Shown: positions 12,650 through 56,807, numbered from the stretch's first letter. The stretch is 64,000 nucleotides of DNA from Ignavibacteria bacterium (GCA_013298775.1 JAAFIV010000010.1:1-64000); one strand, 5' to 3'. The notes: generated from the letters alone by a model not told the origin. Translations and numbers: made by a program.

Positions 12650-12670
12650 TGTTGTGGAAGAGATTGCTCT

Positions 12671-12709
12671 GTGACTATCTGCGACTATCTGCGACTATCT
12701 GCGACTATA
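12671..12709. repeat. 10-bp tandem repeat, four copies
   Basis: The unit GCGACTATCT occurs four times in a row, the first copy with GTG and the last diverging at its end. The tract overlaps the final codons of the reverse-strand nuclease gene, so its 3' end was formed inside or next to the repeat. Confidence 0.85.
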
Positions 12710-26100: not shown

Positions 26101-29100
26101 AGCAGTATTGCAGGTGATATTCAGATAGACAAGCCCGGCGGGACGGCTGCCGCGAATGCAGAAGTAACCATCAACAGCGACATGACCATTCAAGGCTTCA
26201 ATTGGGGTACGTTTCCGAATAGGGCTTGTTTTATTCCCTCAGGTGTTACAGTAACGACCACCATGCCAAACACGTGGGCAGGTACGATAAAAATGCGCAT
26301 TGCTGGACAATTCATTAACGGCATGGGAGTAACAGTGAGTGCCGGCGGCGAAATAGAAATGATAGGCACAGCAGGATGGATGGGAGCAGTGCCGACGTTC
26401 AACACAAATACAAGCCTACGCTACACAGGTGCGGGCAATGTGATGACTTCTATCGTTCCCACAACTATGAACGGCAAATTGTACGTCCAAAAATCCTCCG
26501 GCGACCTCCCCATTACCGGACCTCCACAAACCTTTAACGATAGCGTTGTTGTTGCGTCAAGACTGGTTTTTCCAGTTAATTCAGTCGCACTCGGCGCAAG
26601 CGGACAAGTGGAAATTCGGAGCGGCGGAACGCTTCAGTTTGCGGGTGCGGCAGCAACTCTGACGGCTCCAAATGCAACAAACCGCGTTGTTGTGCGCAAT
26701 GGCGGTACGCTTGAGCGTGTCGCTGGTGCTGGGACAATCGGCTCCCCAAATCCAACGCTTGTGTACGAAGTAGGCTCCACGCTGCTCTATTCTGGCACAG
26801 GAAATATTACCACTGGTACAGAATTACCATTGTTCCCAGCCCCTGTTATCTCTAATCTGAATGTAAATAATGCTGGTACTCTGACGTGTTCGTCACCATT
26901 CCCATTAAGGCTCGAAGGCACAAGCACGATTGGCACTGCCAGCGTCATGCAGATTGTTGGTCCAACATCTTTTTCGGGTCCGTTGACGCTCAATGGCATA
27001 ATCAAAATCCCCGTAGCAAGCAGTAATCTACTCTTTAACGGTCCGCTTCTTCTCAATGGCTCGATTGATGCGACGGGGGTTTCTTCTTCTGTGCAGATGC
27101 AGTTTAATGGGAGCGGCTCCGTTACTGGTACACTTGGGTTTATTGGCAATACGTATAACGGACGAATTTTCCTCAACCGCCCAGGAATGCGCCTCGTGCT
27201 TGGTTCGTCGCTCAACTCTGGGGGTATCACGTTTACGCAAGGCGTACTTGTTGTCAATCCACCGAATCTGCTCACGCTCACGAATGTCTCTGTTATAGGC
27301 ATTCTGGGCGGTAACGCACATTCCTACGTTGATGGAATGCTTGCACGGAATCTCCCCACAAACCAGACCATGCCTGATACGTGGCTGTTTCCTGTTGGCA
27401 AAAACGGGCGGTATCTGCCCGTGAGTATTGTTTCGCCCAAAACAGGCGGTAACGCGCCGCTTGTGCAAGCTGAAGCCTTCACCGGCGCGACCGGCGGCAG
27501 GGCAGATTCCACGTTGAATAGCCTTCTTTCTGGCACGTACTGGAATGTGAATCTAGTTTCGGGCGATATCCTTTCCACCCGCATCCGCCTTGAGAGCGAC
27601 GCACCAACGATTCCTCTGAATGCAGTGGTGGCAAAGTCCCCAACGCTCACGGGCGCGTACACCAGCATTGGTCGGGATTTCGTGTCAGCTACGCGCATTG
27701 TGAGTGCGCCCTTCACTGGCTTCAGCACCTTCACGCTTGGAACGCCGTTTGTTCCGCCGCCGCCCACCGTTGCTATCACCAATTTCAGCCCATTGTCAGG
27801 CACATCTGGCACAACGGTTATTATCAACGGAGCAAATTTTAGTACCGTTACAGGCGTGTTCTTTGGCGGCGTTCCCGTGCAGTCCTTTACGGTAGATTCC
27901 GCTTCGCAGATAAGAGCTATTGTCGGTAGTGGCGCGTCGGGAGCAGTAACCGTGCGGACAATGAGTTTTTCTTCTGCCACAACCGCTACACAATTCACCT
28001 TCATCGGCGCACCAACCATCACGAACATTCAACCGCCGATTGTTGGGATAAATCAAGACATCGTTATAACGGGAACAAACTTTTTCACAACAACGAATGC
28101 TTCACAAGGCGCGTCGTTACTTGTTTCGATGGGAAATGTAACGGCAAGTTCGGTGGTGATAAACTCTCCCACACAAATTACGGTGCGCTTCCAAGCAATC
28201 ACGTCGGGTACGCTCACCGTGCGGGCGCAAGGCGGCACGGTTACGTCCTCGCAGATGCTCTCGGTTGTTCCACCGCCGACCATTACTGGCTTTTCACCAA
28301 GCGCAGTGCCGCAAAACAGCGTTCTCACGGTGACGGGCGCGAATTTTATCCAAAATCAAACGCAAGTCCGTTTGAATGGTTTCGTGCTGCCCGCAACGGT
28401 CAATTCTCCCACGCGAGTATCGGTGCAGATTCCCGCCAACGCGCAATCAGGAACGCTCACCTTCACCACGCCTGGCGGCACGACAACGAGCAATCAACAA
28501 CTGACGGTTCTTCAGGCACCAACAATCACTGCCGCCCAGCCCACAAGCGGCATTGCAGGAACACCTTTCACGATAACGGGACAAAATCTTGCTTTGAGTG
28601 GCATCTTGCTCGTGGGCGGCGTACAGACTGCCTTTACGCTGAACAGCACGGGAACGGTCATCACCGCGCTTTTTCCCGGATTGCCCAATGATGTGTTCTC
28701 CAGCCAAGCAAGTATCAGTTTTACAACGCTCGGCGGCACGGCAACTTTTGGGCAGTCGCTCACGATTCTCCCACCCGCGCAGCCGACCATTACCAGCATT
28801 GAGCCAAATCCTATTTTGGAAGGCGCACCAGCACTCATTCGCCTTGCGGGAACAACCGCCACAACGAGCATTGGTGAACTTTCCATTGGCGGCATTGTGG
28901 TAACAAATGTGGTGGTGCAAGCCGATGGCTCCATTCGTTTTACCGTGCCAAGCGGCGTGGTTTCTCGCTCCGCAACACAATCGCAAGCCGCCATAACGCT
29001 CACCACCACGCAAAACGGACGCACAAGCAGCACCACTGCCGCACTCGCGCTCACCGTGCAAGCCGCGAATCTACCTGCTCTGACGGGCTTTTCGCCGCAA

Positions 29101-32100
29101 GCAGGTTCGTCCACCACCACGCTCACCATCACGGGACAGAATTTCGGCATTGCTCCCAGAGGCAGTATTCAAGCGGTGTTGGTGGGAGGAGTTCCCGTGC
29201 AGAGTTTTAGCATTGTTTCTCCCAATGAAATTCGCGTAATGCTGGGAACGGTGCAAAGTGGCGCAATTACCGTGCAGACAAGTTCTGGTGAGCTTTCCAC
29301 AAGCGGCACATTTACCTTCGACCCACGTTTTATTCCCTCCATTCCCGTTTCGGCACAAGATTCTATCGCGCTTGTAGCCTTGTATCGTGCTACGGGCGGC
29401 GCGAGTTGGACAAACCGAACAAACTGGCTTATCGAACCCGTTTCTACGTGGTTCGGCGTGGTACTTGCAAATGGGCGCGTTGCTGAATTGCGATTACCCG
29501 CAAACGCGCTTCGAGGCGTTGTTCCGGTGGTGGAATTGCAGGCATTGTCGGGTCTGAGGGTGTTGGAACTGAGCGGTAATGCGCTTTCGGGCGACGTTTC
29601 CGCACTTCTGCCCACGCTTACCTTCCTCGAAAGCCTGAACCTCAGCAATACCGAGCTTTCTGGCACACTGGCAGGAATTTGTCCATTGGCAAATCTGCGA
29701 ACGATAAATCTCGCAAATTGCCGCTTCGAGGGAACGCTAGAGCCGCTCTGTTGCTTGAACCGCGTGGAATTGCTGAACGTAAGTAATAATCTTTTCTCTG
29801 GCACAATTCCCGTGTGTTTTGGTGAAAAACCAACGCTCACGGTCTTCGATGCAAGCAATAATCAGCTTTCTGGAGAATTACCGCGTGCGCTTGGCGCATC
29901 AGAAACGCTGCAAGTGCTGAATTTGCGCGGCAATCGTCTCACGGGCAGTATTCCTGCGGCGTGGGGCGCACCTGCTGGAAAAGTACGCGCCAGCGCACAC
30001 GCGCTCACGGGCTTACAACGGCTCGACCTCGCACAAAATCAGCTTTCGGGCGCGTTGCCGCCAGAACTTGGCGCACTCAAAAATGTACGCGAGCTTTCGC
30101 TTGCGGGCAATCGTTTTTCGGGCGCAATACCCGCATCAATGCTGGGAATGATTCGCCTTCGGGTGTTGGATGTGAGCAATAATCAGCTTTCGGAAGCACC
30201 GAATTTTACAACGATTAGCCGCATGGACACGCTTGCCATGCAGAATAATCTGTTTGATTTTGCCACGTTGGAGCAACAACTCATTCCTTTGCAAGCCGCA
30301 CCAACACGAGCCTTTCGGTATGCTCCGCAAAATACCGTTCTCGCTATCACAGGCGCGACAACGGCGGTGCTAGATTCAGAACTCACCCTCCGCATCAATG
30401 CTCGCGGCAGCCAGAACACGTATCGCTGGCGGTTGGATTCCAACGCTCTTTCAGGCACAACCTCTGCAAGCCTCGTGAATGCTCGTTGCACCTCAGAAAT
30501 GGCAGGAACGTATCAAGCTGAAGTTCGGAGTGCGCTGTTGCCACAACTGACCTTGCCGACGCAGCCTCTCACGGTGCGCTTCGCACAACCAGCTACTGCG
30601 CCGCAAGAACTGGTGCGGCTTCTGGAGCCAAGCGCGGGAGCGACGGATGTTTCGCCCGTACCAAACTTCGCATGGTCGAGTGTGCGCGGCGCGGGCGTGT
30701 ACCGCTTTGAGCTTGCCCGAGCGCAAGATTTTACCAGCATTCTCGCCACGACCACCATTGAACAAAGTGCGGAAATCCTTGCTGCGGCTCGCGTTGCTCG
30801 TTCTGGGCAAATGCTCGCAGACATAGCAGGTGCTGGAACAACGCCGTTTCCGCTTCAGGCACTGACGCAGTATTTTTGGCGTGTTCGCGCCGAGAATGTG
30901 CTGGGAAATGGCGCGTTTGCGAGCGGCTCATTTATCACGGCAGGGCGTGATGCGGTTTTGGGAGCAGACAAAGTAGAATTTGGCAGAATAGCCCGCTTGG
31001 ATACTGGTGTTGGCGTGTTTACGGTGCGGAATATCACTGCCGCGCCCGTGCGCCTCATCGCGCTTGCCAGCACGAATCCTGCTTTTGCGTTTGATGCGGT
31101 GCAAAATCTCGCTGTGCCTGTGGGCGGCTCGGCGCGAGTAAGGGTGCTGTTTTTGCCACAAACACTCGTCCCGCAAGAAGCTGATGTTCGCATGAATTAC
31201 GCCATTGGAACAAGCACGAATGCTCAGGCGCAAGTTCTGACGGCGCGTCTGGCGGGTTCGGCGAGCGGCTTAAAAGTGATTCCGCCGCGCTTCGATACGG
31301 TGCTGGCGGGGCAGACGCGCATAGCTTCGGCGCAGGTTATCAATCGCGGCGACCGCACGGCAGTGTTGAAACGCCTCAGCATTGAAGCGCGTGGTGGGGA
31401 ATACGACGTTGTTTCCCAGCGCGACAAAACGGGGCTTGCTGTTGGTGCGAACGATACGATAGCCGTGCCGCTCCGCGTCCGCGCGACGCAGGTAGGGCGT
31501 GTGCCAACAGGACTGATGCGCTACGAAGCGGAATTTGAGGGAAATCTCCGTGCCACGCCGCCTGTGGCTGTGCTGAACGAAGTGGTGAATGTGGCACTGA
31601 ACGCTTTCGCACGCTCACGCACAGGCAACGAGCCGACGGCGCACGTGGGAATCCGCGTGAAGGAGAGCGAAAAAGCACAAGGTATTGCGCCAGGCGCGAG
31701 CGTTACGCTGGAGGTATTTCTTGCGGGCGGGAATCGCAACAGTTTGGTTCAAAGGACGAGTTCGCTTGTAAGCGGGACGCTCCGCTACGACCGCAATGTT
31801 CTCGTGCTAACCGAGCAAGAACGCAGCGTCCGCCGCATCCGCAACACGGCAGCGCAAAACCGTTTTGAACGCCTCGCACTCGCGCCCACGCGCTGGGACG
31901 GTCGCAGCGAGGTCTTGGCAACGATTCAATGCCGCGCCGTTGCAGGCGATGTGGACACGACGGCGATTGAATTAGAAAATATTGTCTGGGAAGGCGCGGA
32001 ACTGGATGATTTTGTGCCAGACGTGCTGCGATTGAGCATCTGTACAGCAGGTGGGAAGCGGCTTGTAACGAGCGCGAAAGCAACACAGCTTGCGGCAATT

Positions 32101-32340
32101 GCGCCAAACCCAGCAAAGGACGAGGTGAGCATTTCGTACACGCTGCGCGAGGACGGATTTGTGGAAATCGCAATGATTGATGCAAGCGGGAAGATCGCAC
32201 AAATACTTGTTTCTGAGGAGCAAGCGGCAGGAGAGTACAGCATCACGAAGGCATTGAAGAATGTTCCAAGCGGGGCATATACGGTGCGGTTCTCGACGCA
32301 GAATGGCGTAGTTACGAAGCGCGTGAGCGTGGTGCGGTAG
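23149..32340 (+). CDS. Giant T9SS-secreted protein with SBBP propeller head
   Basis: 3,063 residues. The signal peptide covers residues 1-26 (cut after SFA). Residues about 105-335 form a DUF7948-type domain (starting FIENKGQWADSVLY), which in known proteins precedes SBBP propellers. Residues 338-785 hold seven SBBP repeats marked by YSTYIGG or YSTYLGG. Then follow a beta-helix-like region 788-1540, six IPT/TIG domains to about 2060, leucine-rich repeats 2066-2380, and Ig-like, fibronectin-like, ASPM/Hydin-like and cohesin-like domains, with a T9SS sorting domain at the end. Its last 300 bp are almost identical to those of the gene at 14011, including 68 identical bases. It is predicted to be exported through the outer membrane; its binding partner is unknown. 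Confidence 0.92.
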   Translation: MHSSVSFVRFFIVVLVLVLPVGQSFAQILSLQSWSPSQSATIRTTPQLAKKLPEASSNFTREFDKFLRTMPMPQSTMQDTLAEQHSSGIENEEAVKRRALEEFNNPASRRHLSFIENKGQWADSVLYCARMGGLTMWLMRDGVLYDFHRRISKPNNPENLNNPRHAHPRHAHDSDRVEGHVVKMRFDGGKTITQFSGIDKQHTYHNYFLGADSTKWRSNVPLWSEVRLADVYAGVDVRFYEDAASPRFDYIVKPGADAHQIALAFEGTDKARVGDDGKLHLATSLGDVALQGLYAYQEVDGKKKQVACEFILKSGKGSEPSLTFALGAYNPALPLVIDPLVYSTYIGGMGVSSAKDIALDASGRAVVLGDADGGGFPLLGAYQGTYGGGTNDIVVSRLNATGTMLDYSTYLGGNDSDTGNRIALDASGNMVIIGTSFSTNYPITMMSAFQSLFAGVTDIVVSKLNAAGTTLLYSTYIGGNNQDDGGDIAIDTGGNIVIVGTGSIGYPLVLPAQMAFGYGTWDIVVTKFTSAGAVVYSTYIGGGGIETGTGIALDASNNAVIVGYSTGSFPTTGGVVQGGFGGVEDIVVSKLSPAGAILYSTYLGGAGSDAANAVAIDAGGNAIITGDSDGSYPTTIGAYQTTFGGMKDVVVSKLNPTGSALLYSTYIGGAAIDLARAIAVDGDGNAVIVGWSEGSYPTTIGAYQTVFGTGGNDAIVSRLSATGAVLLYSTYIGGNTGDIANGVALRANDHAVIAGLSGGNFPTTPLAFQPMPNGAANIVVASLSMNTYVWNGSISNDYQNPNNWGPMPRTTPLPTDDIIFDPPTSTVQVVTNIPSQTVNNLIINNSGGPGNIVRFQSSTSRTLTVNGSFTNSARVEVGDVTQLNELSAITIVLRGASNNQPASGAITLGKQASIRLENGAAFTINGVVRTSRADGINGTSALAGAFQLGTGGGTLIYGAVGTYSFVGYGNQTANFAAVAGKPAISSIAGDIQIDKPGGTAAANAEVTINSDMTIQGFNWGTFPNRACFIPSGVTVTTTMPNTWAGTIKMRIAGQFINGMGVTVSAGGEIEMIGTAGWMGAVPTFNTNTSLRYTGAGNVMTSIVPTTMNGKLYVQKSSGDLPITGPPQTFNDSVVVASRLVFPVNSVALGASGQVEIRSGGTLQFAGAAATLTAPNATNRVVVRNGGTLERVAGAGTIGSPNPTLVYEVGSTLLYSGTGNITTGTELPLFPAPVISNLNVNNAGTLTCSSPFPLRLEGTSTIGTASVMQIVGPTSFSGPLTLNGIIKIPVASSNLLFNGPLLLNGSIDATGVSSSVQMQFNGSGSVTGTLGFIGNTYNGRIFLNRPGMRLVLGSSLNSGGITFTQGVLVVNPPNLLTLTNVSVIGILGGNAHSYVDGMLARNLPTNQTMPDTWLFPVGKNGRYLPVSIVSPKTGGNAPLVQAEAFTGATGGRADSTLNSLLSGTYWNVNLVSGDILSTRIRLESDAPTIPLNAVVAKSPTLTGAYTSIGRDFVSATRIVSAPFTGFSTFTLGTPFVPPPPTVAITNFSPLSGTSGTTVIINGANFSTVTGVFFGGVPVQSFTVDSASQIRAIVGSGASGAVTVRTMSFSSATTATQFTFIGAPTITNIQPPIVGINQDIVITGTNFFTTTNASQGASLLVSMGNVTASSVVINSPTQITVRFQAITSGTLTVRAQGGTVTSSQMLSVVPPPTITGFSPSAVPQNSVLTVTGANFIQNQTQVRLNGFVLPATVNSPTRVSVQIPANAQSGTLTFTTPGGTTTSNQQLTVLQAPTITAAQPTSGIAGTPFTITGQNLALSGILLVGGVQTAFTLNSTGTVITALFPGLPNDVFSSQASISFTTLGGTATFGQSLTILPPAQPTITSIEPNPILEGAPALIRLAGTTATTSIGELSIGGIVVTNVVVQADGSIRFTVPSGVVSRSATQSQAAITLTTTQNGRTSSTTAALALTVQAANLPALTGFSPQAGSSTTTLTITGQNFGIAPRGSIQAVLVGGVPVQSFSIVSPNEIRVMLGTVQSGAITVQTSSGELSTSGTFTFDPRFIPSIPVSAQDSIALVALYRATGGASWTNRTNWLIEPVSTWFGVVLANGRVAELRLPANALRGVVPVVELQALSGLRVLELSGNALSGDVSALLPTLTFLESLNLSNTELSGTLAGICPLANLRTINLANCRFEGTLEPLCCLNRVELLNVSNNLFSGTIPVCFGEKPTLTVFDASNNQLSGELPRALGASETLQVLNLRGNRLTGSIPAAWGAPAGKVRASAHALTGLQRLDLAQNQLSGALPPELGALKNVRELSLAGNRFSGAIPASMLGMIRLRVLDVSNNQLSEAPNFTTISRMDTLAMQNNLFDFATLEQQLIPLQAAPTRAFRYAPQNTVLAITGATTAVLDSELTLRINARGSQNTYRWRLDSNALSGTTSASLVNARCTSEMAGTYQAEVRSALLPQLTLPTQPLTVRFAQPATAPQELVRLLEPSAGATDVSPVPNFAWSSVRGAGVYRFELARAQDFTSILATTTIEQSAEILAAARVARSGQMLADIAGAGTTPFPLQALTQYFWRVRAENVLGNGAFASGSFITAGRDAVLGADKVEFGRIARLDTGVGVFTVRNITAAPVRLIALASTNPAFAFDAVQNLAVPVGGSARVRVLFLPQTLVPQEADVRMNYAIGTSTNAQAQVLTARLAGSASGLKVIPPRFDTVLAGQTRIASAQVINRGDRTAVLKRLSIEARGGEYDVVSQRDKTGLAVGANDTIAVPLRVRATQVGRVPTGLMRYEAEFEGNLRATPPVAVLNEVVNVALNAFARSRTGNEPTAHVGIRVKESEKAQGIAPGASVTLEVFLAGGNRNSLVQRTSSLVSGTLRYDRNVLVLTEQERSVRRIRNTAAQNRFERLALAPTRWDGRSEVLATIQCRAVAGDVDTTAIELENIVWEGAELDDFVPDVLRLSICTAGGKRLVTSAKATQLAAIAPNPAKDEVSISYTLREDGFVEIAMIDASGKIAQILVSEEQAAGEYSITKALKNVPSGAYTVRFSTQNGVVTKRVSVVR

Positions 32341-32608: not shown

Positions 32609-32721
32609 TTTACGTTCCCAAATATACTGAATGTATTTTCATACTACTTCGAGGTATATTGTTTCTCCTACGAATTAGTAGTATATTATTTTCTGATAAG
32701 CGTAAACAGCACTATTTGTGC

Positions 32722-32729
32722 TACCTTTG
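32722..32729 (+). promoter_or_regulatory. -7 promoter box (TACCTTTG)
   Basis: This is an exact match to the Bacteroidota TAnnTTTG box. No good TTG -33 element is seen at the expected distance. It lies inside the longest open frame that starts at 32718, which argues that translation of the fourth giant gene begins downstream, at 32802 or 32931. Confidence 0.5.
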
Positions 32730-32801
32730 CGTCTTTTTAGATGTTTCTTTGGTGCATCACTTTTCTGTTCAAGATTGTTTCTCTCCTATTTGCGTTTTTT
32801 T

Positions 32802-35800
32802 ATGAAAATTTTATCACCCTCTCTTTGCTTAAAGAGCGTACAAATACTCGTCGCGCCCTTTATTAGTATTCTCTCTGCCGTCCAAGGACGAGCAAGAGAT
32901 TTCACGCGCTTTCTGGGACACGTCGTCCAAATGCGCTTCGCCGATGCTCCATTCCGCCGGCTTGGGAGCTTGTTGGTGCTGCTGTTCTGCCTTTCTCTCC
33001 CGACACAAACGGTTGCTCAGGTCGTAACGACACTGGCGGGCGATGGCACTGCCGCCCTTCTCAATGGCACTGGCACCGGAGCGCGATTCAATTCCCCATC
33101 AAGAGTGGTAAGCGATGGCGCGGGCGGGAATCTTTATGTAGCCGATTTCTCCAATCACTGCATTCGCAGAATCGTCGTTGCAACGGGTGTGGTTACAACA
33201 CTTGCCGGAAGCGGTGTTGCGGGCTTTCTTGATGCGACTGGCACGGCGGCTCAATTTGAAAACCCGTACGCATTGTGGCTTGATGGAGCGGGGAATTTGT
33301 ATGTGTCTGATGGTGCGAGTGGGGCACGCATTCGCAGAGTTGTCATTGCAACAGGTGTGGTTACGTCGTATGCCGGAACGGGAGTATCCGGATTTGTCAA
33401 TGGTCCCGTGGCATCGGCACAGTTTTCCGGAATAGAGAGTCTCACCAGCGACGGTGCAGGAAATCTGTTCGTGTCGGATGGGGGCAACAATGCCATTCGG
33501 CGAATTGTGATAGGTACTGGCACGGTTTCAACACTTGCAGGGACAGGTGCTTTTGGACTGAATAATGGACCGGGTGCGACGGCAACGTTTGATAATCCGA
33601 AAGGTATAGGCTGCGATGGTCTGAATGTGTATGTATGCGACGCTGCAAATTACTGTATTCGCAAAATCGTCATTGCAACCGGCGTAGTCTCTACTCTGTC
33701 GGGAGGTGCCGGTCCGGGCGTGTCGGATGGTGCAGCGGGAGTGGCACAGTTTCTTGGACTAATTAGTGATATGGTCTATGACGGAATCGGTAATTTTTAT
33801 TTTGGTGATAATAACCGCATTCGCAGCATTTCCGCCGCAACGGGCGCTGTCTCAACGATTGCCGGATCAGGTACAGCAGGCTTTGTTGACGGGACGGGTG
33901 TTGCCGCACAGTTTAATTCTGCTTTGGGTATTACCCGCGACGCGGCAGGCATTCTCTATATTGGCGACTTTAATAACCACCGCGTCCGCAGACTTGTCCT
34001 GCCGACACCCACCGTTACAGGCTTTGTGCCAACAAGTGCCTACGCACTGCAAGCCGTAACCATAAATGGCACAAACTTCTCAGGCGCAACACAAGTGCAG
34101 TTCGGCGGCGTGAATGCAGCGTGGTTTACAATCGTCTCGGCAACGCAAATACGCGCTGTTGTGCCGATTGGCGGCGCAAGCGGGAACGTGAGCGTTACCA
34201 CAGGCGCAGGAACGGGTTCGTTTGCGGGCTTTACCTTCACCGTAACGCCGCGTGTTTCCTCGTTTGCGGGGCAATTAACGGGCGGGTATTTGGATGCCGT
34301 CGGTGCTGGGGCGCAGTTCGTGAACCCCAACGGTATCGGCGTGGATCCTTCGGGCAATCTGTACGTTGCGGAAAGTGCAAATCACCGTATTCGCAAAATC
34401 ACGGCGACGGGCGTGGTTACGACCTTCGCAGGAAGCGGCGTGGCGGGCTTTGCTGATAATACGGGCATTTTGGCGCAGTTCGCTAGTCCGTCGGGCGTTG
34501 CGTGCGATGCGTTGGGAAATGTCTATATCGGCGACGAGGGCAATCATTGTATTCGCAAAATCACGCCGGGCGGCGTAGTTACGACGCTGGCAGGCTTGGG
34601 AGCAACGTCGGGTTTTGCCGATGGCACAGGCACGGCGGCGCGGTTCAATAATCCTGCCAGACTCAGCATTGATGCGGCGGGCAATCTTTTCGTCCCCGAT
34701 GCAAGCAATCACCGCATTCGTAGAGTAACTCCCGGCGGCGTGGTTACGACGATTGCGGGAAGCGGCACGATGGGTTCGCTGGACGGAACGGGCGTAGCAG
34801 CGCAATTTAACGCGCCAACAGCCACAGCCGTTGATGCGGCAGGGAATGTCTATGTCGCAGAAACAGGTGGCAATCGCATTCGCAAAATCTCTCCCGTTGG
34901 CGTGGTTACGACGCTGGCGGGCAATGGCACTGCCAGCAGCGTGGACGGTGTAGGCGCGGCAGCAACCGTAAACGCGCCCGTCGGCTTGGCGACGGATGCG
35001 GCGGGAATGCTCTACCTCATTGAATCTACCTCCTATCGGATTCGCACGGTCTCTCAAAGCGGTACGGTTACGACCTTCGCGGGAACAGGCACGGCGGGGC
35101 TGACCGACGGAACACTCACTGCTTCGCAATTCGGATGGATGCGCGGCGCAGTTGCTGATGCGGCGGGCAATCTCTACATCACCGACACGGGCAACAACAC
35201 CATTCGCAAAATTAGCGTCGCCCAGCCCGTCGTTACGAGTTTTCTGCCCACAAGTGCGTATCCGATGCAAGTAGTAACCATCACCGGTACAGACTTTTTC
35301 GGCGTTACGCAAGTGCGCTTTGGCGGGGTAAATGCTGCGTGGTTTGAATCGGTTTCGCCGACGCAAATACGCGCCGTTGTGCCGATTGGCGGCGCAAGCG
35401 GCAATGTAAGCGTTACCAACAGCGCGGGAACGGGAACACAAGCGGGCTTCACCATGATTGCCGCACCTGCGGTTTCAACAGTTGCGGGTGATGGGACCCT
35501 GAGTTTTCGTGATGCTGTGGGTGCAGGAGCGCAGTTCAATTCTCCCTGCCATATCGTACGCGACGGCGCAGGAAACGTGTACATTTCCGACCGCCTCAAT
35601 AACCGTATTCGCAGAATGACTCCGTCAGGAGTGGTTACAACCCTTGCAGGAAGCGGCACGGCGGGCGGTCTGGATGGAACAGGCACGGCGGCGCAGTTTA
35701 ACCTGCCCTACGGCATTGCTATCAATGCGGCGGGAACAATTCTTTACGTTGCGGAGTCTGTTGGACATCGTATTCGGCAAATCGTTATTGCGACGGGTGT

Positions 35801-38800
35801 TGTTACGACGATTGCAGGAAGCGGCACTGCTGGATATGCCGATGGAACGGGCGTTGCGGCGCAGTTTAATGCCCCGATTGGTTTGTGTACGGAAGGCGCA
35901 GGAAACCTGATTGTTGCCGATGTGTTGAATAATCGTATTCGCCGCGTGGTGATTGCTACGGGCGTGGTTACAACCGTTGCTGGAAACGGAACGGCGGGAT
36001 TTGCTGATGGATTGGCAGCGACGGCGCAATTTAATCATCCGCGCTCACCTGTTGTTGATGCCGCAGGGAATATTTTCATTGCTGATTATTTGGGTCATCG
36101 TATTCGCAAAATTACTCCGGGCGGTGTTGTTACGACGCTCACGGGCAATGGCACTGCGGGAAATGTGGACGGCGGACCAGCCACAGCCCAAGTGAATAAT
36201 CCTAATCATTTGCTCTTGGATGCTGTTGGGAATCTCTACTTCGCTTCGGGGAATGGCCACACCGTTCGTATAGTCTCTCCTGCCGGGGTGGTAACAACCA
36301 TCACTGGAACGGGTACATCGGGATTTCTTGATGGAGCGGTGAACGTCGCGCAATTATTTTTTGTTGCTGGAATACTCCAAGAAGCATCAGGTTCGCTCTT
36401 GGTAGCGGACGAAGGGAATCATCGCATTCGCCGCATCGTTCTTCCGCCGCCGACGGTTACGAGCTTTAACGCCACCACAGGCTATCCGGGTTTGGGCGTG
36501 ATTATCAACGGTACAAACCTTGCCACCGTTACGCAAGTTACGTTTGGCGGCGTAGTTTCGCCGTCCTTTACGGTACTTTCCAACACGCAAATTGTCGCGG
36601 CAGTGCCTGCGGTAGGCGCGTCGGGGAATGTGCAAGTAACCAATCCGGGTGGAAGCGGCTCATTTGGCGGATTTACCTTTACGCCGACTATTCCTGAAGT
36701 GTCGCAATTTGTCGGAAATGGTGCAGGTGGCGACTTTGCAGACGGTACGCAAGGCGCAGCGCGGCTGAATAATCCTAGCGGTATTGCTTTCAATGGCACG
36801 GGGGATATGTTTGTCGGTGATATTAACAATAATGTTATTCGCCGCATCACACCAACGGGCGTGGTAACAACCTTTGCCGGAAGCGGTGTTCCGGGCTGGA
36901 ATGATGCAACCGGCACGGCTGCTCAGTTTAATATCCCACACGGCGTACTGGTGGATGGTTCGGGCAATGTTCTTGTGGCGGATTATGGCAATCATCGTAT
37001 TCGCTCCATTACGCCGGGCGGCGCGGTTACGACGCTTGCGGGAAGTGGTGCGTTTGCGTTCGTGGATGGTACAGGCACGGGAGCGTCGTTTTTCTATCCG
37101 TTTGACATGGTGCTTTCGGGCGGCTTTTTGTATGTTTCGGATTATTACAATCACGCCATTCGCCGCATTACCTATCCGGGCGGCGTGGTTACGACCTTAG
37201 CGGGAAATGGCACGACGGGAACTGCCAACGGCACGGGCGCAGCAGCGCGGTTTAATAGTCCCGCAGGAATTGTCGCCGATGCAGGAGGAAATTTCTTTGT
37301 CTGCGACCAAGCAAACCACACCATTCGCCGCGTTACTCCGGCGGGCGTGGTTACGACCTTCGCAGGAAGCGGCACGATGGGCTTTGCGGATGGCACAGGC
37401 GCGGCGGCGCAGTTCAATAGCCCTCGCGGAATCACGATTGATGCCGCAGGGAATTTCTATGTGTCGGATGCCGGAAACAATCGCATTCGTCTGATTACTC
37501 CGGCGGGCGTGGTTACGACGCTTGTCGGCACAGGCACGTCAGGGCTGTTGGACGGAGCGGGTCTTTCCGCGCAAATAGCCGGAGGTGAATTGCTGAAGTT
37601 TAATTCCTCAGGTGTGTTGTTTTTTGCTGATAGAGGCAACAATGCCATTCGCCGCATCCTTCCTGCATCGCCCGTCGTTACGAGCTTTAATGCCACAACG
37701 GGCTATCCGGGCTTGGGTATTATTATCAATGGTGCGAATTTTTCGAGTGTAACGCAAGTGCAATTTGGCGGGGTAAATTCGCCGTCGTTTACCATTATTT
37801 CTCCCTCGCAAATTGTCGCGGCTGTGCCTGCGGGCGGTGCGTCGGGCAGTGTGAGCGTTACTGCGCCAAGCGGGACGGGTTCGCTGACTGGATTTACCTT
37901 TACGGCGGTTGTCCCGCCTGTTTCGACCTTTGCGGGAAATGCGGCTGGTGTTGGCTTTGCAAACGGCACGGCTGGCGCGGCGAGGTTTAATCTGCCTGTT
38001 GGCTTGGCGTTCAATTCTGCGGGTGAGATGCTTGTGGGCGGCTCTGCGAATAATGTGATTCACCGCATTACCGCAACTGGCGTGGTTACGACCTTTGCCG
38101 GAACAGGTGTTGGGGGATTTGCCGACGGACCAAGCGCGTCGGCGCAGTTCGCTAACCCACACGGCGTAGCCATTGATGGTTCGGGGAATGTTTTTGTGGC
38201 GGATTTTGGTAATCATCGTATTCGCGTTATTTCTGGCGGCGTTGTCTCGACCCTTGCCGGAAGCGGTGTTGCGGGTTATGCCGATGCGACGGGTGCGGCG
38301 GCGCAATTTAGCTTTCCCTTTGGCATTCGGGTTATCGGCTCGAATGTGTATGTAACCGAACAAGGCAATCGTATTCGCCAAATAACCTATCCGGGCGGCG
38401 TGGTAACGACCCTTGCGGGAAGTGGTACGGCGGGCTTTGCCGATGGCACAGGTGCGGCAGCGCAATTCTCCAATCCACAAGGCTTAGGCTCGGATGCCGC
38501 AGGAAACCTCTACGTGGCAGACAATGTGAACAATCGTATTCGCAAAATTACCACACCGGGCGGCGTTGTTACAACGCTCGCGGGAAGCGGCGCGGCTGGT
38601 GCGGCGGATGGTCTGGGCGCAGCAGCAACGTTTAATCAACCACGCGGGCTTACGCTGGATGCCGTAGGAAACCTTTATGTTACCGATGCGGGAAATGCTC
38701 GTATTCGGCTTATCACGCCTTCGGGCAACGTTTCCACCTTCGTTGGGGGCGCACCCGGAAACACGGACGGAACATATCCCGCAGGGCAGTTTTCTTGGAA

Positions 38801-41800
38801 TGGCTCGATAGGCTTGGAACAGCCTGCATTTGACGCTTTGGGCAATTTGTTTGTGGTGGATAGAGTGAATAATGCTATTCGCCGCATTGTTCTGCCGCCT
38901 CCAACTGTTACCAGTTTCAACGCCACCACAGGCTATCCGGGCTTGGGTGTGATTATCAACGGTACAAATTTGGCAAATGTTACGCAAGTTACGTTTGGCG
39001 GCGTGGCTTCGCCGTCGTTTACAGTCATTTCCAACACGCAACTTGTCGCAGCTGTACCTGCGGGCGGTGCGTCGGGGGCGGTGCAAGTAACCAATTCGGT
39101 AGGAAACGGTTCGCTGACTGGGTTTACCTTTACAGCAGTCATTCCGCCGATTTCTACCTACGCCGGAAATGCTGCACCTTTGGGCTTTGCCGACGGTACG
39201 CAAGGCGCAGCGCGGTTTAATGGTCAGGTGGGCATTGCCTTCGATGGAACGAACTTGTATGTTGCCGACACGGACAATCATCGTATTCGGAGAATTACCG
39301 CAGCTGGCGTGGTAACAACGTTTGCAGGAAGCGGCACGGCAGGATTTGCCGATGCAACAGGTACAGCGGCACAATTTAACCGACCAGCAGGACTAACCAT
39401 AGATGGAGTGGGGAATATACTGGTCGCCGATTATTTGGGAAATCGTATTCGCGTCATTACGCCGGGCGGCGTTGTTTCTACTCTTGCCGGAAGCGGAGTG
39501 GCAGGCTTTAACGATGCTACGGGAACGGCGGCGCAGTTCAACAATCCAGTAGCCGTCGCGCTCAGTGGCGGATTTGTGTATGTAGCCGACCAAGGCGGCT
39601 TCCGCATTCGCCGCATAACCTATCCGGGTGGCGTGGTTACGACGCTGGCAGGAAGCGGCGTGTCAGGATTTGCCGATGGAACAGGTGTGGCGGCGCAATT
39701 TGCTCTTACCGAAGGCATGACGGTTGATGGCGCAGGAAACCTCTATGTTACCGATTATGGAAACCATCGTATTCGGAAAATTACTCCCGCAGGTGCGGTA
39801 ACAACCCTCGCTGGAAGCGGCACAGCAGGTTATCTGGACGGACCCGGAGCAACGGCACAATTTAACACTCCGCGTGGCATTACCACTGATGCTGTCGGTA
39901 ATCTCTATGTTACCGATGCGGGCAATGCTCGTATCCGCGTTATTACTCCGTTGGGGGATGTTACCACATTTGCCGGAAGTGGTACGGCGGGCTTCCAAGA
40001 CGGAACTGTGGGAGCAGGGCAATTTTCTACGGTTATTGAACATCTTGTCTTTAATGCCGCAGGAGCATTGTTTGTCGCGGACAGAGGCAACAACGCCATT
40101 CGCCGCATTACACCGCAAATTCTCGTTACGTCGTTCACACCCACCAGCGCAGGTCCGAGCGACGTTGTAACAATAAGTGGTTCCGGCTTTACCGGCGCAA
40201 CCCAAGTGCAGTTCGGTGGCGTAAATGCTGCTTCTTTCACTGTCGTCAATAACAACACCATCACCGCAACACCTGCGGCGGGTGGCGCGACGGGCAGCGT
40301 GAGTGTTACTGCGCCCTTGGGAATGGCTTCGCTTGTGGGTTTTACGTTTTTGCCGAATGTGTTTTACTACGTGGGTCCTGCCGACGCTTCGGTGAACACG
40401 AGTTGGAACTCGGTATTGGGCGGAGGCGGCGTAAATCCTACTCCGGCGCAGTTTATGAACAAAGCGGGCGATACCTACATTTGCCCCACAAGTGTTCCGT
40501 TAGTATCTGTTGGAACGCCGCTGACGGTGGGCAATGGCGTAACGGTGAATGTACAGGCTAACGTAATATTCAACCTCGGCGGCTTAGTGCCAATGACGCT
40601 GAACGCAGGTAGCACCTTTAATATTCTTGCCACTGGTACGGTTGCAGTTGCTGGCGGGGTAGTTACAAATAATGGTACGTTGAATGTCGCGGGTTCTCTT
40701 GCTTTTGGCGGTCCACCAGCCTTTACGGGTACTTCTCCAATATACGTTGCTGGCAGTTCACTTGCATATGGTCAATCAGGCAACGGTACGGCAGGTGCCG
40801 AATGGTCCACCATCATGCCCGCAGGAGTTGGGATAGTGATTGCAAAGTTTGGTGCAACATCCATTACTCTCCCCTCAAACCGTGTGGTCAATGGTTCAAT
40901 CCTCTTGAATAGTGGAGTTCTCAGTCTTGGTGCTGCTACGCTTACCTTAAACGGCGCAAGTACACTTACCCCCGGACTTGTACAAGGCGGCGCAGGCTCT
41001 GGTTTAACCATAGGCGGTGCTGGTGCAATTACGGGTAATCTTACCCTTACAGCCCCACAAACACTCGGTGCAGGGCTAACAATGAGCCGAGCAGGAGCAA
41101 CGCTGACGCTTGCTTCGCCGCTTACCGCCACGCCCGTTACGGTGAATAGCGGCGGTAGTCTGAATACAGGTGCGCTTGCACACACGTTCTCAGGGCTTAA
41201 TGTTGGTAATATTTCTACCTTGACCGTCGCGGCAGGTGGCTCTGTTACGCCAACGGCAAACTATTCGGTCGCTGGTTCTATTGTCATAGACGGCGTTTTC
41301 GATGCAGGTACAAATGTCGCAAGCGGTACAGGCGGTATTGCTGTGAATGCGGCGGGAATGTTCTCCACAGCGCATCCTGCGGGCTTGGCGGGCGCACTCA
41401 CGAATACGGGCGGCAACACATACAATGGCACTGTCCGCATACAAGGCGCGACGGTGGGCAATACTGCTGGATTGAACTTGGTGAATCTCATCATAGACCG
41501 CGCCACTGCTGTTACGCTACCGCAAAATATCACCATTACGGGCGTTTTGAATGTTGCGAGCACAGGCAATTTCGACCTCGCAGGACGGCAGCTTTCGCTC
41601 ACCGCCACCGCTAGCACCAGCACTAGTGCCACAGGCACAATAGACGCAAGCGGTATAGGTTCAAGCATTTTGCTCAATACCGCAACGCTGAACGGAGAGC
41701 ATTTCACAGGCGGCGCAATTCGGCAACTTAATGTCAATAGCGTTCCGACTCTTTCCAACAGCCTCGCTATTACGGGGCTGCTCAATATGGGTAATGACCT

Positions 41801-44800
41801 TACGCTTGCCGCGCCGCATGGACGCTTGTGGCTACGCTCTCCAGCCACGCTGAACGCTCCCGGAACGCGCATTCAAGGCACGAACACCACGAGCGAAGTA
41901 ATGATTGAAGGCGGCTTCAATGGCGGCACAATGCCAAGTGCATTTGGAAATCCTTACAATGGCGCAATTACCTTTTTAGGTGCGGAAAACTTCACGGGCG
42001 CACTCACCATGAGCGCGGCGGCGGGCGCACTCACGCTCAACGGCAATGTGAACGTGCAAGCCACATCCACACTCAGCTTGAACCAAACCGCCGCAAACTC
42101 GCTCACAGGAACCGCCACGCTACAAGGCGCGGGCGCGACTTCCATCATTGTGCTTGGCAATGGCTTCAATGCTGGTGTTGTACCTGCGCTGCGCTTTGCA
42201 AATCCGCTCAATGCAAACCTAACCACGCCGGGCGGTGTTGCTACCTTGTCGGGCGGCAATCTCACGCTGGGAGGCGCACAAACACTCACACTTGGCGGAC
42301 GCTTGACCACAAGTTTGGCGAATACGCTCACGGTTACCAATACAGCAACAACATCAATTGCGGGTGCAAGCGCGACAAATTACATTGACGGACCGCTTGA
42401 ACGCCAGCTTTTAGGCGGCATTGCGGCAAATGGTACGACCTATCTTCTGCCCATTGGCGAAGGTACAAGTTATCGCCCTATGACCTTGCGCGACATTCGC
42501 ACGGGCGCATCACCACTCGTGCGGGGAACGGTTGCTCCTTCTGGTGCGACCATGCCTGACAATCTCACCATTCTTTCGCTTCTTTCAGGCAGAAACTGGC
42601 AATTAGAGCAGCTTTCGGGCGTATTTACCTCCACCACGCTAGAATTGACCGAAGGTGGACTTACACCAACGGATTTGATTGGCATTTCTACCACGCAAGC
42701 AGGTACATACTCCAGCATTGGCGGCATTCCGGGCGCAGGTTTTGTTCGCTCGAATGTGCAAGCTGGTCTCGGCAATAGATTTTACGCCATTGCTGGCACG
42801 CCGCCTGGTACATTTTTTTACAACGAAACCCTCATGGGCGATGCCTCGTTGCCAACTTCGTGGAATTCCGTTCCGAATGGAAGCGGCGTAGCTGCGAGCT
42901 TGGGGCTGATGACAAGCGGCATTGGAACGGCGTTCATCGTGCGAAGTGGCATTACAGCAAATGCTTCGAGCAGTCTCACGTTTGGACCAAGCGTTACACT
43001 CACCTTGCAACCCTCATCAAACCTCACCGTGCAATCAGGAACGCTGACGGTGAACGGCACAGCAAACGTTTCTGGTATCTTGGCAATTGGTGACGGCGCG
43101 ACGCTGGCAAATGCTGGCTCAACGACAATTGCGGCAAACGGGACGCTTCGTATGATGGGCAATGGAGCTGTAAGCGGCACTGCGCCTGTCTTTGCAGCAA
43201 CAACGTCTGCACTTGAATACACAGGCACAACGCCAAAAACGGCGGGAAGTGAATGGCAAAACCCGCTTCCATACACGGTACGCGTTGCAAACGCAGGTGG
43301 TGTGCGGCTTTCCAGCACACGTACCCTTGCAAATACCGCAAACGTGAATGTTCAAACAAACGGTGTTTTGACGATTGGCGATGGCGCGAATCTGGTAAAT
43401 GATGGTAACATCTTGGTTGGCGGACTAGGAAGAATGCGCCTCGACGGGAATGCACAACTGTCGGGCGCAAGCGGCATCACCTACCTTTCCACGTCCACGC
43501 TTGAATTTAGCAATGCCACCGCAACACCAAACCCAACGGCTGGAAACAAGGCATTTCCTACGCCAATGAACGCAAACGTTATCGTAAACAACGCCGTTAC
43601 GCTGGGTGAAAGCAAGCAAATAAACGGCTCGTGGACAGGCATTGGCGGCAGTGTAAATTTGAATGGGAACACACTTACGCTGAATGACGCAATTGCATTC
43701 GGCGGAACAAGTTTTGTCGGTAATGCTACAAGCGGCTTAGTAATTGCTGGAAGCGGCGCAATAACTGGTCTCACGACCATCACAGGCGGCGCAATCGGAA
43801 CATTGACTATGAATCGCGCTGGCGCGACACTCACAAACACCGCACCAGTACAGGTTGCCAGCACATTAACCTTGCAAAATGGCTTTATTTCAACAACATT
43901 GGGAATGATAACGCTCACAAACCCAGCAGTTACGGGTTTAGTGGGCGGTTCGGTAATGTCGTACATTATTGGTGGTTTGGAGCGAACATTGCAAGCAAAT
44001 TTGTCCGCAAGCCCGCTTCAATACCTATTTCCTGTTGCAAAAAATGGTGCATATTTACCACTCATTGTAACAAACCTTACAACGGGTGTAACCGCGCCAA
44101 TTGTCCGCACAGAGGCATTTAATACTGGTGTTGCTGGAAGTACGTTGTCGGTTGTGGGTAGTCTCAGCCTTACCGAATACTGGCAAACTACGCTTGTAAG
44201 CGGCGCGTACACAAGCGGCGCGGCAATCCTGACGCGCCCAACGCTGGCAGCAAGCAACAGCACAGCCTTCACCGCAGGAGTGGGAACAGTATTTAATCCA
44301 TCGGGCGGAACGCTTGCAGGAATGAACCCAACGGCAACGCTTACAAGTAGCGTGGTTGCTGGTTTAGGGCGGTTTGCTGTTACGTTCCCTTCGTCGGTGT
44401 TGATTGGTAATTTTTCGCCAAAAACTGGTGGCGGGGGAACAATAGTAACCATCACGGGTTCAGGCTTTACGGGTGCAAGTGCGGTGCGTGTGGGCGGCAT
44501 GAATGTTACTTCCTTTGTTGTCAATTCACCCACTTCCATCAACGCAACGCTTGCAAGCGGCATGACGGGTACGATTGACGTTATCACTGGCTTGGGAACA
44601 GGTACATCAGATTCTACGTTTGTTTTCACACCACCACCAACAATCACCTCCTTTTCACCAACTGGTGGTGGCACAGGAACACTTGTAACGCTCACGGGAA
44701 CAAACTTTATCGGCGTTACGAGTGTACGCTTCGGCTCAACGTCGGTAACGTTTACGGTTCTTTCTCCGACGCAAATTCGCGTGCAATCGCCTCTGAATGG

Positions 44801-47800
44801 GTACGCACCTATTCAGGTAACTGCTACGGGTGGCTCTGTAACAACTCTGCAAGCCTTTACCCAACAACTTTTGCCAGAAATCTATTCCTTTAGCCCCACA
44901 ACAGGTTGTCCGGGAACATTGGTAACAATTATTGGCAAAAATTTCTCGTCGAATATCACCGATGTTGATTTTGGCTTCAAAACAGCCGTTCCGTTTGATA
45001 CTGTCTCCTCAACGGTTCTGACGGCAACAGTTTCGCCGCTTGGGGCAACGGGTCTAGTGCGCGTCGGCGTTCCAGGATATTGGGCAATTGCTCCGCAAAT
45101 GTTTACCTTTACAACATCTTGTACTACCTCCGCCGTCGTCGTTCGCCCTGATTCTGCTGTCGCTGGTGATGTCCTCACGCTTTCAGGACGTGATTTTTCA
45201 AAAGCCGACCGGTTTACATTTGTGAATGGCTCTACCTTCATTGAACAAACGCCCCTCTCGCAAACGAGGGATACGGTGAAACTTACCATGCCACCACTTT
45301 CCTTTAGCGGCGACCGAATCCGAATGAGAATACAATTTCAATTGAATACAAATGTTGATACAACTGCATCCTTTCTTGCGCTGCAAACTCCCGCCATTAC
45401 TGGCTTTTTTGATAGTACCAATACAAGGGCAATAACCGAAGGAACGCGCGGCGCACGTATCACCATTCGTGGGCAATATTTCCACAGACTTACGAATGTA
45501 CGCTTTGGCAGCACCTCAGCAACTATTTTATCCAGCACTCCAACCGTCATTCAAGTACGAGTACCAGAGACAGCACAATACGGCTTTGATATTGTCTCCG
45601 TGAATGCTCGGGGCGTATGGGTTTCAGCACCAGAGCGCTGGTTTACTATTCCACCTCGCCCAAAGATTCTCACGCAATCGCCGCTTGATAGCGGGGAAGT
45701 CGGCGAAACAGTGCTGCTTCGGGGCGAGAACTTTTTCCCTGATAGCCGTGTGTTTTTCAATAGCAGTTCGTCCTTCAATCGCATACCAGCCGCATCAGTA
45801 CGAGTGATTTCAATGGATAGCGTGGCGGCGGTTGTTCCCGTTGGCGCACGTGATGGATTTATTACACTGTATAATTTTTATGATAGTGCTGCCGGACCCA
45901 GAATCTTTCGCATCGCTCAACCCAAAACCCGCATCATATCATTCTCGCCTGAGCGCGGCGGTGTGGGAACGGCAGTGCGCCTCACTGGTGTTCTCTTCGA
46001 TACAACGGGCGGCGCAGTTGTCTCTTTCAACGGTTTACCCGCACGAACACTGGTTTCTTCGACTACCGACGCACTTGCAATTGTACCTGCGGGCGTGAGT
46101 GTTGGCGCGGCGAGTGTCAGTATCACGGGTAGAAATGGCGCGTTTACCTCAACGCGAGCATTTATCGTGCTTCCCGCGCCTGTGATTACCGACATTGACC
46201 CCGTTTCTGGCGGCGTAGATGATACAATTACGCTCACAGGGCGCAATTTTACTGGTGTTACGACGGTTACGATAAATGGTCGTGCGCTGCAAAATATGGT
46301 TGTGGTTTCGGATAGAAGCATTACCGCGAGTTTGACGGATATTCCCGTCGGACTTGGCACGGTAACAGCTTTCAGCGAAGGCGGGCAGGGAAGTTATCCC
46401 GTGCAGTTTGAATTATTGCCGCCAAGCCTTGCAAATGCGCCACGTATTGAATCGTTCTCGCCCGCCTTTGGTCCTGCGGGAACGCGCATTGTGGTTCGCG
46501 GGCGCAATTTCTTCACGATAGCATCGGCGCGGGTTGGGGGCGTTTTTGCGACAGTGGAGCAGATTTCCACGACAGAAGTAATTGTGATAGTTGGGCGCGG
46601 CGCGACAGGCGCAATCACGCTTACGAACGAGTTTGGTTCGCGCGGAAGCCGCACACCGTTCCGCTTCCAAACGCCATTGGATTTAGATTCCATCGCGCTT
46701 GTGGCATTCTACAATGCCCACAGACCAAGCCCCAATGCGATTCCTGGAGCAAATTGGTTTACGGTAAATCCAATACAAACATGGCAGGGAATCACCGTCG
46801 GACGTGCGGGCGAAGACGACCGTATTTTGGGAATAGTGCTTACTAATGCAAGTATTCGTGCGGTGTCTGCGCTTCAAACGCAAGAGTTGGTAAAAATTTC
46901 CGAACTCCGTATCCTGAACCTCAGTAATAACGCGCTCTCTGGCGGTATTCCCGCTCAATTTGCTCAGTTCCGTACGCTAACCGAATTACGCCTTGCAAAT
47001 AATACGTTCTCTGAAGCAATTCCCGTCGCACTCGCAGAGCTTTCTGCGCTGGAAATTCTCGACCTACGACGGAATCAATTGACGGGCAATATCCCCACAC
47101 GGCTTGTTTCCTTGCCGCAACTGAGGGTCTTGTTGCTGTCGGATAATCGTTTCACAGGAAACCTTCCAACGCCGATAAACACTGGGCTTGCAAGTAAATT
47201 CACGACACAAACAAATGCTGCGTCGGTATTAGAAATGCTGGACGCAAGCAATAATCAGCTCTCTGGCGCGATTCCCGCAACGATAAACGCTTATGCGCAA
47301 CTTCGTGTGCTGGGCTTGTCGAATAACGAATTTACAGGGGCAATTCCGCAAAGCCTCGGTAATTGCTTGTTCCTCACAGACCTCGCCCTCAACAATAACC
47401 GCTTGAGCGGTACTGTCCCTGCCGATGTGCTGCGTTGTGTGCGCCTAGAGCGTTTGCATCTTGAAAATAATAGATTAACGTTTGTTCCAAACCTTACTCC
47501 GCTCAATCGCCGCTTGAAATCGGTGTTTGTTGGAAATAACCGTTTAGATTTTGGTTCGCTTGAGCCAAATATCACCATGGACACGCTTCGTTACACGCCG
47601 CAAGATACCTTAGACGTTGCAGAGCGCATCATAACTGGTGTTGTGGGCTTGCCGCTCCGAATGCCGCTTACGGTGGGCGGCGCGAGCAATCGCTTTGCGT
47701 GGGAACGCAACGGACGTAGTATTGACGGGCTTCCAACGGCATTTGCACTTGCCGACACAGGAGAATATGTATGCCAAATCACGAATGCACGCGTCCCGAA

Positions 47801-55509: not shown

Positions 55510-55556
55510 AGCGGTAGAGTTATTTTCTCACTATTTCACTCTCAATATTTGGCATT

Positions 55557-56789
55557 ATGAATGAACTTCCAGTAATTCTTTACGTGGATGACGAACCAAG
55601 CAATCTAGCGATGTTTGAGGCGGCGTTTTTTGAGTTTTACGATATTTATACAGCTCAAACCATATCGGAGGCAAATGCTATCCTTGATGAGCATCCCATA
55701 CAAGTTATCCTGAGCGACCAGCGTATGCCAGAGATGACGGGTTCGCGCTTTCTCGCGCTTTCGCTTGGGGACTGCCCCGATGCTGTCCGCATGATTGTAA
55801 CGGGCTTTTCCGATATTGAAGACGCGATTGCTGCGGTGAACGAAGGGAAAATTCATCGCTACATTAAAAAACCTTGGGACAACAACGACCTCAGAGCAGC
55901 CATTGATGAGGCGTTGAAGTTTTATAGCGTCAAAAAAGAGCGGGATGATTTATTGCAAACACTTGAGGTGAAGGTAGAACAACGAACACAGGAATTAAGC
56001 CAAGCAAACGATAAACTTGCCCAACAGAATCAGCAACTTGAGAACTTGAATAAAGAAAAAAATGAAATTCTTGAAATAGTCTCACACGATTTGAAGAATC
56101 CATTGTCAGCAATTACTGGTTTTACCGAATTATTGCTGTTTGTAGGTGAGAAAATTTTTACAGCTGAAGCGTTTGAATATATCGGGCAAATACGCTCGGC
56201 GGTGAGCCGCATGATGGAATTGGTCTTGCAAATTCTTGATTCGCATTTGTTGGAAGAAGGGCGTATCAATATTAATCCTATTCACTTCTCGTTTGATGGT
56301 ATTGCCAATGCGTTTGTAGATGAGTACCAATCTCGTGCTGAGGCTAAAAATATCACGATCCATTATCAAAACTCCTCTAAAAATCTCATTTTTGCGGACG
56401 AGCAGAAATTGTATCAAGTCATTGATAATCTTGTGTCGAATGCCGTAAAATACTCACCTCATGGCAAAAATGTATGGATGTTGGTCGAAGATACCGATAC
56501 TTCTACCCTCAGTAAAAGTTTTCATCCAAACAGCGTTGTGTTGGCGGTGCGCGACGAGGGTCCGGGGCTTGCGCCCGACGAAATGGAGAAATTATTTCGG
56601 CGTTTTTCACGATTAAGTCCACAGCCCACGGGTGGGGAGAATTCAACGGGGTTGGGCTTGTACATCGCAAAAAAGCTCATCGAAGCTATGAAAGGGCGCA
56701 TTTGGTGCGAATCTACGCTTGGTGAGGGATGCACGTTTTTTGTGGAATTGCAGATTTCACCCGCACCCGAAGTGAAAGAGCTTCCGTGA
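55557..56789 (+). CDS. Response regulator-histidine kinase hybrid
   Basis: 410 residues. The N-terminal receiver domain has the acidic pair D11-D12, the phospho-acceptor D54 (LSDQRMPEM), a conserved Thr (VTGFSD) and a switch Lys (IKKPW). A coiled coil (about 120-165) links it to a histidine kinase with H177 in VSHDLKNPLS, an N box (DNLVSNAVKYS), DEGPGL and GLGLYIAKK. There is no DNA-binding domain, so output must pass through phosphotransfer or partner binding. It starts 47 nt after the large kinase, a likely cognate partner, and only a few bases before the lipoxygenase frame, which indicates co-transcription. Confidence 0.93.
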   Translation: MNELPVILYVDDEPSNLAMFEAAFFEFYDIYTAQTISEANAILDEHPIQVILSDQRMPEMTGSRFLALSLGDCPDAVRMIVTGFSDIEDAIAAVNEGKIHRYIKKPWDNNDLRAAIDEALKFYSVKKERDDLLQTLEVKVEQRTQELSQANDKLAQQNQQLENLNKEKNEILEIVSHDLKNPLSAITGFTELLLFVGEKIFTAEAFEYIGQIRSAVSRMMELVLQILDSHLLEEGRININPIHFSFDGIANAFVDEYQSRAEAKNITIHYQNSSKNLIFADEQKLYQVIDNLVSNAVKYSPHGKNVWMLVEDTDTSTLSKSFHPNSVVLAVRDEGPGLAPDEMEKLFRRFSRLSPQPTGGENSTGLGLYIAKKLIEAMKGRIWCESTLGEGCTFFVELQISPAPEVKELP

Positions 56790-56807
56790 TGATTGTTTGC
56801 ACTAGGG

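Follow-up and report, generated by a model that had tools for sequence, protein, structure and literature searches.

Introduction

The variable lymphocyte receptors of lampreys are built on leucine-rich repeats, and their formation is somatic and enzyme-driven. The HNWD genes of Podospora anserina (het-d, het-e and het-r) have four codons per WD blade under diversifying selection, paired around a conserved residue at positions 7/9 and 25/27 (PMC1805685), and their repeat arrays are unstable (PMC2873952). Assembly of the lamprey receptors resembles gene conversion (PMC3900441). Propellers newly amplified from single blades reveal ongoing remodelling by duplication (PMC9218822). Recombinational diversification of propellers has so far been known at the level of single blades. 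In the locus described here, the exchanged unit is probably a whole propeller.

The locus lies in a stretch of 64,000 nucleotides from an Ignavibacteria bacterium, called the window below. It codes for a giant protein with alternating NHL propellers and TIG (IPT) domains. We propose that recombination in conserved linker blocks of ~300 bp probably swaps whole propellers and thereby diversifies a secreted recognition protein. Full arrays from four species were compared (n = 4, one per species, all from draft genomes): that of the window and those of G001, G006 and G007, which are metagenome-assembled genomes (MAGs). Protein identities in gyrB, valS and ileS define the window and G001 as sister species (96–99%; gyrB 99%), with G006 and G007 more distant. 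Papers on Kapabacteria with NHL repeats were absent from the literature library searched.

Gene and protein architecture

The ORF codes for 5622 aa and carries the array in its N-terminal part. Its true start is likely internal, at the ATG at 32931, because of conservation with G007; this start would open a signal peptide, MRFADAPFRRLGSLLVLLFCLSLPTQTVAQ. Behind the signal-peptide-like stretch there are 36 NHL blades in six sets of six, with one TIG behind each set. They are followed toward the C-terminus by a conserved scaffold, further TIGs, leucine-rich repeats and a Por_Secre_tail domain. The features are as follows, with P for propeller and T for TIG linker.

32718–49586, plus strand: whole ORF, 5622 aa
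33024–34007, plus strand: P1, six NHL blades; same cassette as G007 P1 (93% aa) and G006 P1, absent in the sister species G001
34008–34247, plus strand: T1 (Pfam, HMM)
34254–35225, plus strand: P2; same cassette as G007 P3 and G006 P2, another cassette in G001
35226–35468, plus strand: T2 (HMM)
35472–36449, plus strand: P3; same cassette as G001 P2 (91% aa), unlike G007 P4
36450–36692, plus strand: T3, type B (HMM)
36699–37670, plus strand: P4; matched by G001 P3 only (78% aa); modelled with AlphaFold2 together with T4
37671–37913, plus strand: T4 (HMM, AlphaFold2)
37920–38900, plus strand: P5; best counterpart in the family at most 65–68% identical
38901–39143, plus strand: T5, type B (HMM)
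39150–40118, plus strand: P6; counterparts in the family at most 66% identical, yet the flanking T5 and T6 are conserved
40119–40361, plus strand: T6, the last of the array (HMM)
37605–37920, plus strand: example of a conserved linker block (identity profile, repeat families D7 and D15, model strands)
near 33939–34238, 35157–35456, 36387–36686 and 38838–39137, plus strand: equivalent linker blocks (identity profile, repeats)
41319–44201, plus strand: conserved scaffold region, used as orthologue marker; 69–83% aa identity between species
44397–46673, plus strand: additional TIG domains beyond the propeller array, variable in part from species to species (Pfam, HMM)
46881–47561, plus strand: leucine-rich repeats (Pfam LRR_8, LRR_4, LRR_1)
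49350–49562, plus strand: Por_Secre_tail, type IX sorting domain (PF18962)

The domain assignments are well above the Pfam cut-offs. NHL is found with E 2.4e-118 (PF01436, 381 bits, cut-off 20), and TIG with E 6.4e-35 (PF01833, 119.5 bits in the array and 157.2 in the C-terminal part, cut-off 20.9). The type IX secretion sorting domain scores 33.6 bits (cut-off 27). From these sequence features, the giant protein is probably exported by type IX secretion and located at the cell surface or outside the cell. TEN_NHL also matches, and the Pfam search of both ORF halves gave no YD/RHS family, so that the teneurin combination of NHL with a YD/RHS shell is not found here.

Four genes for giant, probably secreted proteins lie one after another (1–12555, 14011–22083, 23149–32340 and 32718–49586), and the array gene is the last of them. 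The first is an ORF of >4184 aa, in which a long region of several TIGs separates two six-bladed NHL propellers. Short tandem repeats occupy 12668–12889 (TCTGCGACTA in four copies and ACCTTTTTCAAT in 5.4); the latter repeat lies inside a DUF2887 ORF on the minus strand (12705–13571). Downstream of the array gene, 50065–56789 codes for a 1814-aa serine/threonine kinase-AAA-GAF-histidine kinase fusion and, after it, a response regulator-histidine kinase, and 56793–59048 codes for a 751-aa protein with a lipoxygenase match of 31 bits. Within the array gene, the TIGs at 44679–45400, outside the array, are only ~30–50% identical between species, while their flanks are 70–90% identical; this is possibly another exchange patch.

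Module format and fold

Each of the six modules has ~400–410 aa and consists of six blades (~53–59 aa each) and one TIG; the earlier note had proposed one closed propeller and one IPT domain per module. The propeller starts listed above are the module starts from a blade-by-blade dissection, and the last module ends near 40361. The TIG starts from the HMM are spaced by 1218, 1224, 1221, 1230 and 1218 bp; the first four spacings agree with the earlier note, which gave the fifth as 1228, 10 bp too long. The 1.22-kb periodicity that it described also emerges mechanically from a repeat search (families D7, D13 and D15). Blade number is the same in all modules. Neither finding that the note named as a refutation, a missing 1.22-kb diagonal or differing blade numbers, was thus obtained.

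The AlphaFold2 model of module 4, for which 24 modules served as alignment, is a closed six-bladed propeller with one TIG (pLDDT 94.7, pTM 0.87), in agreement with the expected string of six propellers. The strand order of the model is that of a ring of six four-stranded blades, and it superposes on 7djm with Z 45.1 and an rmsd of 1.6. According to its strand list, the module opens with a strand separated from blade 1, and blade 6 contributes only three strands ahead of the TIG. The model suggests that this opening strand completes blade 6 and closes the ring.

The modules are old, and their silent sites are near saturation. Module pairs in the window share 46–63% protein identity and 54–67% DNA identity, and fourfold sites are 0.36–0.53 identical, compared with 0.31 expected from composition. 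The longest run of identity in any aligned module pair is 26 bp. In modules 2–6, the blade 1-to-blade 1 register is best in nearly every pair, and therefore these modules arose by duplication of modules; for module 1, no register with the others stands out. The equal length is explained by the fixed six-blade fold, which demands such length, and not by recent copying. Blade-by-blade amplification inside one propeller was considered as well and is rejected, with a blade identity of 0.49 within a module versus 0.52 at the same position in other modules.

Propeller cassettes and TIG linkers across species

The scaffold region is present in six of the eight genomes of the genus, and its matches, to Candidatus Kapaibacterium and Ignavibacteria MAGs, identify the group to which the window belongs. 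In 147 other genomes of the wider phylum, a search at E 1e-70 gave no comparable full module and one partial match in a 429-aa frame. Module number varies between species, where the earlier note had suggested variation between strains: seven modules in G007, six in G006 and in the window, and five in G001 (one array each), with six blades in every propeller. The G001 array opens with a leading TIG that lacks its propeller.

Between species, propellers are nearly all-or-none. They are either the same cassette (76–95% aa identity) or unrelated (mostly 52–65%), with an intermediate case in window P3 and G006 P3 (70%). The surrounding TIG linkers keep their position and identity, mostly at ~80–95%. 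Propeller ancestry is thus mosaic against conserved linkers. In the tree of TIG domains, linkers including the last one cluster according to position; in the propeller tree the propellers do not, and they group across species and not by genome. Near-identical repeats grouping by species, typical of HNWD-type concerted evolution, are not observed among these modules, which are 46–63% identical and group across species. A single cassette type occupies slots 2 and 4 of G007 and slot 1 of G001, and another occupies slots 2 and 4 of G001 and slot 3 of the window. A donor or counterpart of P5 and P6 was sought in ten genomes of the family and none was found.

The AU test rejects positional orthology of the propellers at position 3 (p 2e-37) and position 5 (p 1e-51). 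Positions 1 and 2 form clean clades. Positional orthology is not rejected at position 4 and the last position, which leaves room for P4 and P6 as highly diverged alleles.

The edges of the conserved blocks are well defined. DNA identity climbs at about 37605, within the second half of blade 6, and drops again at about 37920, past the first strand of the following propeller. The profile has the same shape at other linkers, and the edges of high identity coincide with the linker blocks. Each block of ~300 bp comprises strands B and C of blade 6, the TIG and the closing strand of the next propeller. In the type-B linkers T3 and T5, likeness across positions equals likeness across species, as expected of exchange points; from their sequences, only these linkers look exchangeable between positions.

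Hypervariable blade positions

Loop residues of propellers are generally variable. Among 144 blades, positions 24, 26, 30, 41 and 42 stand out, with an entropy of 3.2–3.9 bits compared with a mean of 1.6, and the same five positions lead in 72 blades of other arrays. In the model, positions 24 and 26 are at the start of strand A, positions 41 and 42 are in the loop after strand B, and position 30 is at the opposite end of strand A. General propeller topology would place 24, 26, 41 and 42 on one face. At the five sites, matched cassettes are 63% identical and mismatched ones 17%, compared with 86% and 63% elsewhere. The excess of amino-acid over silent change at these sites is significant in one pair only (G007 P2–P4, p 0.005) and nearly so in a second (p 0.06); it is not significant in the other pairs.

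Divergence relative to housekeeping and control genes

Housekeeping genes (gyrB, valS and ileS) alone were judged too strict a baseline because giant secreted genes diverge faster. A giant gene with one six-bladed propeller and ~41 TIGs was added as a second control (contig C34, 205470–216751, in the window's own genome). It is present in all other genomes of the genus looked at except G002, and its propeller and TIGs diverge evenly together in six out of six species pairs.

P1 of the window and P1 of G007 have a fourfold identity of 0.90, compared with 0.51 in housekeeping genes (p 2e-28) and 0.37 in the control gene (p 5e-49). For G007 P7 and G006 P6 the value is 0.84, compared with 0.57 (p 3e-13) and 0.37 (p 1e-37). 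Such silent-site identities above the genome level point to transfer between lineages. The sister pair shows the opposite deviation: between the window and G001, identity is only 56% in P5 and 63% in P6, whereas the control gene is 83–88% identical. Both are too divergent relative to this gene (p 2e-26 and 8e-16 for amino acids; p 0.004 and 0.005 for fourfold sites). The divergence of P4 in the same pair is ordinary and fits the control gene, so with the second control P4 is no longer counted as replaced.

These values bear directly on an old tandem duplication followed by vertical descent in place, with unequal rates and positive selection on binding residues. The in-register duplication of modules 2–6, the hypervariable sites that outpace the rest even in matched cassettes, and positions 1, 2, 4 and last, all compatible with positional descent, agree with it. 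We nevertheless consider it unlikely, given the AU test at positions 3 and 5, the same cassette types in different slots, the cassettes at 0.84–0.90 between species whose genomes are at 0.51–0.57, and the even divergence of a control gene with the same domains. Positive selection in place as the only cause is ruled out at positions 3 and 5 and by the silent-site identities above genome level.

Still less probable is an artefact of assembly or binning, in which modules from different strains or from paralogous genes were merged during short-read MAG assembly. Three of the four arrays are of known MAG origin, and contig breaks fall at module sequences both in G002 and in contigs C62 and C71 of the window's genome. 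However, identical runs of at most 26 bp between aligned modules are far below the usual assembly word length, ORFs of 5–6 kaa are open in four genomes from separate projects, six blades are kept in every propeller, and the control gene in the same genomes lacks the pattern.

Other arrays in the same genomes

A second array is found in G007 (contig C61) and G001 (contig C63), with cassettes reordered between the two, and contig C34 of G001 holds another NHL6-TIG array. In the window's own genome, two genes open with a very similar propeller (C71:1–4000 and C62:1–4000). Both contigs break at the same point and their last 126 bp are identical, a sign of recent duplication or exchange, which the assembly left unjoined.

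The reordered cassettes and the near-identical gene starts would suit programmed switching from a silent cassette store, as in pilE or vlsE, with variants arising within a clone. This seems very improbable, as the other arrays start with signal peptides or N-terminal domains of their own and have no close cassette in common with the main gene, and neither a recombinase in the window nor a silent store was identified; the contigs of these arrays end inside the arrays. Recent amplification with ongoing homogenisation, which the earlier note took from the even module length and to which the likeness of type-B linkers across positions and species would add, is scarcely credible with modules 46–63% identical in protein, identical runs of no more than 26 bp, fourfold sites near saturation and propellers that group across species and not within genomes. 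The recombination proposed here would diversify propellers, the opposite of homogenising them.

Proposed mechanism and comparison with known systems

Exchange of whole propellers through the linker blocks remains the preferred explanation. In the N-terminal part, recognition cassettes that can replace one another would be lined up, every cassette being an entire six-bladed NHL propeller, separated from the next by conserved ~300-bp blocks that would supply homology. Recombination between blocks, both inside the gene and with DNA of related strains or species, would exchange, delete or insert whole propellers with frame and fold kept, so that the protein retains its shape while its binding face changes. 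The linker block holds both the recombination homology and the ring-closing strands, so any cassette should fit any slot. Homologous recombination would be the simplest account of the pattern, binding is presumably the role of the cassettes, and diversification may be the selected effect. Swaps could alter what the protein binds without breaking it.

If confirmed, the gene would be an example of natural modular display by a giant bacterial protein, and the targets recognised by bloom- and mat-associated Kapaibacteria would become testable. The arrays would then also provide dozens of naturally occurring propellers that share one frame and differ in their binding faces. An enrichment culture of Dolichospermum is reported to have yielded a Kapabacteriales MAG (PMC7714850), and cyanobacterial surfaces as the ligand are a guess from this source.

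The fold itself is well known. SOQ1 (7djm), NHLRC2 (6g7w) and TRIM71 (8j72) have the same fold as the module 4 model (Z 45.1, 43.9 and 37.4, rmsd 1.5–1.9), as does the teneurin-like protein 9ifo (Z 39.0, rmsd 4.0 over 357 residues). However, all four have one propeller per chain and no TIG-linked array. The Bacteroides structures 3hrp, 3tc9 and 4hw6 also contain an NHL propeller of like fold (Z 30–34); 4hw6 is named an IPT/TIG domain protein, and 3tc9 and 4hw6 are titled auxiliary nutrient binding proteins. They differ in being proteins of 400–430 aa with one propeller.

Tentatively, and with somewhat less assurance than for the exchange itself, the locus may represent a bacterial recognition system in which complete beta-propellers serve as cassettes between invariant linker-and-latch blocks and are exchanged also across species, each swap resetting ~30 residues of the binding face. 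It would then be the propeller counterpart of the lamprey receptors or the fungal HNWD genes. Like the lamprey receptors, it would have recognition cassettes of a repeat protein exchanged between constant flanks, but nothing here indicates a somatic or programmed process. In contrast to amplification at the blade level, blade number is fixed and whole propellers move. With the HNWD genes it would have in common a propeller diversified by recombination, and it has paired variable sites, here 24/26 around P25. There, near-identical single blades are shuffled in one propeller under concerted evolution, whereas here the moving units would be entire, divergent propellers with conserved TIG linkers on either side, and the protein is bacterial and probably secreted.
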